Assembly (NCBI GenBank): GCA_023266895.1 | Contig: JAHFOI010000004.1 | Location: forward strand, 1 to 49,511 | DNA: 49,511 bases | Source: Candidatus Woesearchaeota archaeon | GTDB lineage: Archaea > Nanobdellota > Nanobdellia > Woesearchaeales > ARS49 | Direction of reading: 5' to 3' | Part shown: positions 5,255 through 45,477 of the stretch, one piece after another | Position numbering within the stretch: position 1 is the stretch's first letter | How the letters are laid out: each line of letters begins with the position of its first letter | The notes under the pieces: model-generated | Told to the model about the DNA's origin: nothing | What the model saw: the letters and a program-made list of their open reading frames with translations, nothing else | Database searches by the model: none | Made by a program: the position numbers and the translations under genes

Positions 5255-5433
5255 ACAAACACCTCAAAACGCACACACAGAGTCGCCTCGGCACGTAAAC
5301 ATCTAAGTACATCACGCGTAGCATTATAAAAAGCTTATGAAGGAAGATTTCTTCAGTTAGCATTCAACAAAGTCATTCAAATGAGCTGTTAATAAATAGT
5401 AACACCTGTTTGTTCTTCTTAACAAAAAGATAA

Positions 5434-5545
5434 CGCCGGCGCGGGGAGTTTCAACCCATCAGGGATCGATAGATTTTTGAACCCCGGAGCTCTTCCGAGC
5501 ACTGGAGTTTCAATCCAGCGACCTACCGGCTTAGCCGACGCCGGC
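5434..5545 (-). tRNA. Type II tRNA with Ser-like features; predicted anticodon reads GAA; 28-nt BHB intron in T-loop
   Basis: Acceptor GCCGGCG/CGCCGGC, G73, D-arm with GG, anticodon stem CTGGA/TCCAG with loop TTGAAAC, variable arm GCTC-GGAA-GAGC, T-stem CGGGG/CCCCG; no encoded CCA; T-run after the 3' end. Confidence 0.8.
5448..5475 (-). other. Archaeal tRNA intron (bulge-helix-bulge) between positions 59 and 60
   Basis: GGGG-TTCA-[AAA]-ATCTATC-GATCCCT-GATGGGT-TGAA-[ACT]-CCCC: 4-bp central helix with two 3-nt bulges; splicing gives T-loop TTCAAAT. Confidence 0.8.
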
Positions 5546-5719
5546 GTCGTTGATTTAACTAATTCTTCATTTAAGTGTTTTACTGAGAAAAATCAGTAAA
5601 CCTTCCGAGAAATTCGCAAGAATTACGAAAGAGTTGCAAAGTCTGCGAAAAAAAGAGGTATTTCCATCATTTTTGCAAAAGCAACAAGATGAAACAAGCT
5701 GAGGCTGTTGCACACACCT

Positions 5720-45316: not shown

Positions 45317-45477
45317 TCAACATCACTGCCTAACCAGACTCACTGCGGTTCGTAGGTCTGCAACAAGTTGCAACCAGACTCACTGCGGTTCGAAGTACTC
45401 AAAAATGATTCGTATTTTTGGCACCTGCTCAGCATCTTCGCAGTCTTGCAAGTTACTTGCAACCAAGCGGCAGGGTA
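45317..45477. repeat. Mosaic repeat related to family 2
   Basis: CAACATCACTGC...GCAACCAAGCGGcaGGGTAT shared with copy A; direct repeat AACCAGACTCACTGCGGTTCG at 45332 and 45372. Confidence 0.55.

Follow-up and report, generated by a model that had tools for sequence, protein, structure and literature searches.

The closest described systems to the locus reported here are the allo-tRNAs of bacteria (PMC7609411) and the nev-tRNAs of nematodes (PMC4033280). Allo-tRNAs are Ser-type tRNAs with diverse non-Ser anticodons and acceptor/T stems of 8/4 or 9/3, and for some irregular members a role in decoding is uncertain (PMC7609411). nev-tRNAs are class II tRNAs carrying class I anticodons; nev-tRNA-Gly reads Gly codons as Leu (PMC4033280). 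Archaeal tRNAs with non-canonical bulge-helix-bulge (BHB) introns are best known in the Thermoproteales (PMC4033280). Here we describe a tRNA-like gene on the minus strand of contig JAHFOI010000004.1 (assembly GCA_023266895.1, Candidatus Woesearchaeota archaeon), of which positions 1 to 49,511 were analyzed (49,511 nt; "the window"). It belongs to a widespread and apparently uncatalogued family of tRNA-like RNAs, which we consider probably to be a tRNA-Ser-derived, multi-copy, spliced and co-regulated family of structured RNAs of the Woesearchaeota, acting mainly outside decoding.

The family resembles allo-tRNAs in combining Ser identity elements with a non-Ser anticodon, as judged here by sequence features. 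However, it is archaeal, with 7/5 stems, a predicted T-loop BHB intron, a nearly fixed A35, and a shared promoter; lacking 8/4 or 9/3 stems, it is not a member of the allo-tRNAs. With nev-tRNAs it shares a long variable arm, a mismatched anticodon, and multiple copies, but those are eukaryotic, have set anticodons (CCC, UAU), and are not described as having a T-loop intron. Like the Thermoproteales-type tRNAs, it appears to carry a BHB intron outside the anticodon loop; those tRNAs decode, whereas the woesearchaeal intron site is common to the members of a family that does not form a set of isoacceptors. The likely ancestor is the canonical woesearchaeal tRNA-Ser, several examples of which have 59/60 introns (L080, L082, L088) and which shares the fold, the acceptor start GCC, G73, the variable arm and the intron site. 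The family differs from it in having a YYNANAC loop in place of a Ser anticodon, a separate promoter type (in the source genome), and many copies. A literature search of partial coverage turned up no description of a family of this kind.

The window gene and its homologs

The gene and its parts are arranged as follows.

5434..5545, minus strand: whole tRNA-like gene, 112 nt, or 84 nt after the predicted splicing
5502..5518, minus strand: anticodon-like arm CTGGA-TTGAAAC-TCCAG, loop at 5513-5507, GAA at 5511-5509
5489..5500, minus strand: long variable arm GCTC-GGAA-GAGC, a class II feature
5442..5486, minus strand: T arm including the insert, with T stem CGGGG (5486-5482) / CCCCG (5446-5442)
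5448..5475, minus strand: T-loop insert of 28 nt, a predicted BHB intron at positions 59/60

Along the minus strand from 5545 to 5434, the order is GCCGGCG-TC-GGC-TAAGCCGGTAG-GTC-G-CTGGA-TTGAAAC-TCCAG-T-GCTCGGAAGAGC-TC-CGGGG-TTCAAA-[28 nt]-T-CCCCG-CGCCGGC-G. The ends form a 7-bp acceptor stem (GCCGGCG/CGCCGGC), with G73 at 5434 and no encoded CCA. The initial annotation had read a Ser-type class II tRNA with G73 (5434) and a long variable arm (5500-5489), a CTGGA/TCCAG stem around TTGAAAC (minus strand, 5518-5502) placing GAA at 34-36, a TATA-like element upstream, and a T run at the 3' end; all of these are present, while the T-loop intron and the existence of a family had escaped it. Unspliced, the gene received no call from ARAGORN and none in Rfam at the gathering score (12.2 bits with the Rfam tRNA model), because the 28-nt T-loop insert hides it from such searches. 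With the insert removed in silico, ARAGORN calls an 84-nt tRNA-Phe(gaa) that has a long variable arm and the usual 7/5 cloverleaf.

The source genome holds six copies (C31, the window's contig; C21:65268; C46:11594; C46:22796; C37:4926; C13 near 21220), and a search of related genomes recovered a multi-copy family, with blastn relatives in 13 of 98 genomes; that the gene is a single oddity is ruled out by these copies and homologs. A covariance model built from 15 sequences (R1) scores the window gene at 114.4 bits over 5434-5545 and has matches in 238 of the 244 genomes of the order Woesearchaeales. Its weak 84-nt matches are ordinary Ser tRNAs, while the strong matches of ~100-130 nt are mostly family members, with some canonical Ser tRNAs carrying a T-loop intron among them. 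Copy number reaches about a dozen in each of three genomes (G014, G024, G108), and 8 of the 27 genomes in the window's taxonomic family have no R1 match at E <= 1e-10. An exact pattern searched across 85,462 GTDB species recovered 19 stretches, nearly all titled Woesearchaeota; the same pattern had no match in viral contigs, leaving spread by viruses unsupported.

The fold is conserved through compensatory change. Across the 15 homologs, 93.7% of cells are paired, double-sided changes occur in 79 cells (24.5 +/- 4.3 in shuffles), and the covariation score is 0.461 (no more than 0.115 when slid). Compensatory changes affect 5/5 pairs of the anticodon-like arm (helix 3) and 4/4 pairs of the variable arm (helix 4); the T stem (helix 5) is 100% paired, and the inner helix of the intron is the weakest in the family (78% paired). 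The loss of pairing and promoter that marks a pseudogene is not what is found here.

The T-loop insert and predicted splicing

RNAalifold, given the 15 homologs and no structure, recovered the T stem, a TTCA/TGAA helix flanked by 3-nt bulges, and an inner helix; this is an archaeal BHB, the structure that marks exon-intron junctions in intron-containing archaeal tRNA genes. Cuts at AA/A and AC/T (the usual pattern being AA/A and AN/T, with the slash marking the cut) give back the T loop TTCAAAT. Spliced in this way in silico, all six copies of the source genome are recognized as tRNAs by ARAGORN (GAA, GAG, GAA, GAT, GAA, GAA), although in the C37 and C13 copies, which have long inserts, the exons were joined by position and the BHB is not clean. 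In the canonical tRNA-Ala(TGC) of the source genome (C34), a foldable insert breaks the sequence at this same 59/60 site, and the genome carries one EndA gene (C50). We infer from these sequence features that the T-loop insert is an intron excised by splicing.

A quite unlikely alternative is that the insert stays in and that the RNA functions unspliced, with an extended T arm. The 5' insert strand CTTTCGG is conserved within the window's subfamily beyond what an intron needs, but the insert sequences of other subfamilies are unrelated to it. Further, the BHB with its 3-nt bulges is conserved, T is the last base of its 3' bulge in almost every one of the 78 members described below, and the insert of tRNA-Ala(TGC) at this site lies in a canonical tRNA.

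The tRNA-Ala(TGC) gene (L062, C34 near 35716, minus strand) has apparent introns both in the anticodon loop and at T-loop position 59/60, and scores 22.5 bits with the Rfam tRNA model. Canonical Ser tRNAs of relatives (L080, L082, L088, L089, L090, L091) also have T-loop inserts at 59/60, and introns at this position seem to be common in the order.

The anticodon-like loop, the promoter, and possible roles

Loop statistics were compiled from 78 distinct members, each having a 7-nt loop that lacks a Ser anticodon; these were drawn by a model built from the family, so that the counts describe its matches rather than an unbiased sampling, and a few of the lowest-scoring ones may be other tRNAs. 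The triplet at 34-36 is GAA in 23, GAG in 14, GAT in 14, CAG in 9, AAG in 8, and something else in 10. A35 is present in 75/78, A37 in 67/78, and G73 in 72/78; position 33 is U in 66 and C in 12, and A34 occurs in 9. The loop, YYNANAC, is not kept as the reader of one codon. G37 is the general rule in tRNAs with G36, and the ordinary Leu-GAG, Leu-CAG, and Leu-TAG tRNAs of the source genome carry it; among the 32 family members with G36, 29 have A37 and one has G37. The elongator features of U33, and of G37 alongside G36, thus do not hold across the family, while the window copy itself has T33 and A36. The family has the class II fold, long variable arm, G73, and 7/5 stems of tRNA-Ser without a Ser anticodon at 34-36; nor is it tRNA-Phe, which has a conserved GAA, a class I fold, and a short variable loop, since the variable arm is long and GAA occurs in 23/78. 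The 9-26 pair is not a family hallmark, as the canonical Ser-CGA of the source genome also has C9-G26.

An inventory of Ser and Phe tRNA genes in the source genome found canonical Phe-GAA, Ser-GCT, Ser-GGA, and Ser-CGA as separate genes, together with a true tRNA-Ser(TGA) at C48:10805-10902 that has an anticodon-loop intron. Because Phe-GAA and all four Ser tRNAs are present, the tRNA-like family is unnecessary for decoding. That the window gene is itself a missing tRNA-Ser(TGA), its loop having been read in a shifted frame, has next to no probability: positions 33-35 do read TGA, and Ser-TGA had gone undetected with the tRNA model, but this triplet is variable as well (TGA, CGA, CCA, TAA, TCA), and the gene on C48 refutes the idea. 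The tRNA model did not find Lys-TTT or Arg-CCG in the source genome, perhaps because unusual introns mask them. The source genome holds one clear SerRS, an enzyme that as a rule ignores the anticodon. Two odd tRNA-like matches were also seen there: L042 (C19:2456-2545), whose loop reads CTATA and whose T loop reads TTTAAT, and L044 (C12:19635-19717), a second His-like gene.

The flanks of the window gene contain the following elements.

5570..5578, minus strand: family promoter box, TATA-like, ACACTTAAA, upstream of the gene
5586..5592, minus strand: TTTTTCT, a T-rich element on the upstream side of the TATA box, common to the copies but degenerate
5600..5650, minus strand: array of TTTCG/GCGAA/CGGAA-type words, on word statistics a possible operator
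5424..5433, minus strand: 3' flank TTATCTTTTT, a T run and possible terminator by its sequence, inconsistent in other copies

Within the source genome, ACTTAAA precedes 6/6 family copies and 0/30 of the ordinary tRNA genes examined, and the six copies share an A-rich leader in addition to this box and the T-rich element. An extended promoter pattern, searched genome-wide with two mismatches, recovered 5/6 copies and two weak other sites (one in the control); the copy with more mismatches is the window's own. In other genomes, subfamily A has purine-rich leaders and upstream CG-box words enriched over source-genome tRNAs (p = 2e-5 and 5e-7), values that are indicative only, as the word list was chosen post hoc and the control was the tRNAs of the source genome rather than those of the other genomes.

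Sequence comparison shows that the family combines the conserved helices of a class II tRNA fold with a T-loop BHB insert, a promoter type shared among copies, and the YYNANAC loop. In the reading that we favor, every copy would have a promoter of its own, co-regulated with the others, from which it is transcribed; EndA would excise the T-loop intron at 59/60, as is required in tRNA-Ala(TGC) of the source genome; and the 84-nt product, predicted to take a tRNA-like fold, would have CCA added and might be a substrate of the single SerRS. The mature RNA would then most likely not serve decoding for the most part, and its loop would be a recognition element. A "non-translational tRNA" was among the options of the initial annotation. 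Several observations weigh against the favored reading: many loops look capable of decoding (U33 in 66/78, Y32, A37 in 67/78); a pure scaffold has no obvious need for the near-invariant A35; no conserved neighbor genes, and so no pointer to function, were seen around the family copies; and the C37 and C13 copies, interrupted by a further ~91-nt repeat, may be impaired.

It is possible, though unlikely, that the RNAs serve regulated mistranslation instead. Once serylated, they would read NUN codons (Phe, Leu, Ile, Val) and put Ser in place of hydrophobic residues, whether to respond to stress or as a toxin. Bacterial allo-tRNAs offer the model: in E. coli, those with non-Ser anticodons insert Ser at codons for Leu (PMC7609411). 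The Ser identity features (G73, GCC/GGC, variable arm), the restriction of triplets to NAN by A35 in 75/78, U33 in 66/78, and the normal T loop and D-loop GG of the spliced form are all consistent with such a role. But the triplets are conserved neither between copies nor between genomes, C33 occurs in 12/78 and A34 in 9, and A37 stands where G37 would be expected beside G36 in 29/32. Serine insertion at Phe codons, as initially suggested, is not supported as a conserved role, given that 34-36 varies, including among the six source-genome copies, that the family departs from U33 and from the G36-G37 rule, and that canonical Phe-GAA and all Ser isoacceptors exist. We consider it improbable that the copies are functionless, decaying tRNA-Ser duplicates or selfish tRNA-derived repeats. 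They are multi-copy and dispersed, without conserved neighbors, two are interrupted by a further repeat, and the canonical Ser tRNAs of relatives also have T-loop introns; against this stand the 79 double-sided changes (24.5 in shuffles), the distinct promoter retained in 6/6, and A35 in 75/78. The decayed gene proposed initially is disfavored by covariation, shared promoter, and multi-copy conservation, and an assembly error (G35A) is very unlikely, as like loops recur in dozens of copies from independent assemblies.

If the favored non-decoding role is correct, these archaea would harbor a large and separately regulated family of RNAs derived from tRNA; if the RNAs decode, they would constitute a programmed system of Ser-for-hydrophobic mistranslation. 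In either case, standard tRNA finders and Rfam overlook numerous structured RNAs across many genomes of this archaeal order, and 59/60 is indicated as a common tRNA intron site in this DPANN group.

Upstream half-copies and a 91-nt repeat

In sister lineages, many of the genes (subfamily B) have a degenerate repeat of their own 5' half ~45-60 nt upstream, with a loop identical to that of the gene (L073, L074, L076, L077, L079, L085, L086, L087, L098); in L085, the identity covers 43 nt of this half. Own-loop matches at -60..-39 number 14 of 54, whereas 2000 shuffles gave a mean of 0.95 and a maximum of 7. The window copy has no upstream half-copy. Where present, the half-copy sits ahead of the gene's TATA box and seems to have a TATA box of its own. 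Tandem duplication followed by truncation is the simplest origin, yet the loops agree while the rest has diverged. We tentatively raise the possibility of a new class of regulated, non-decoding RNAs derived from Ser tRNAs, in which the anticodon-like arm would be a variable address (A35 and A37 nearly fixed, 34 and 36 variable) and, in the sister lineages, the gene and linked half-copy with the same loop would be two parts of a single system, such as an effector with its decoy or regulator.

The sequence GGATTGAAAC resembles a CRISPR handle (Rfam CRISPR-DR9, 17 bits); this was taken as chance, as most other family loops do not match. The 91-nt repeat occurs at three places in the source genome: the extra T-loop sequences of the C37 and C13 copies are 98% alike, and a stretch at 45375-45463 (minus strand) of the window is 90% identical to them.
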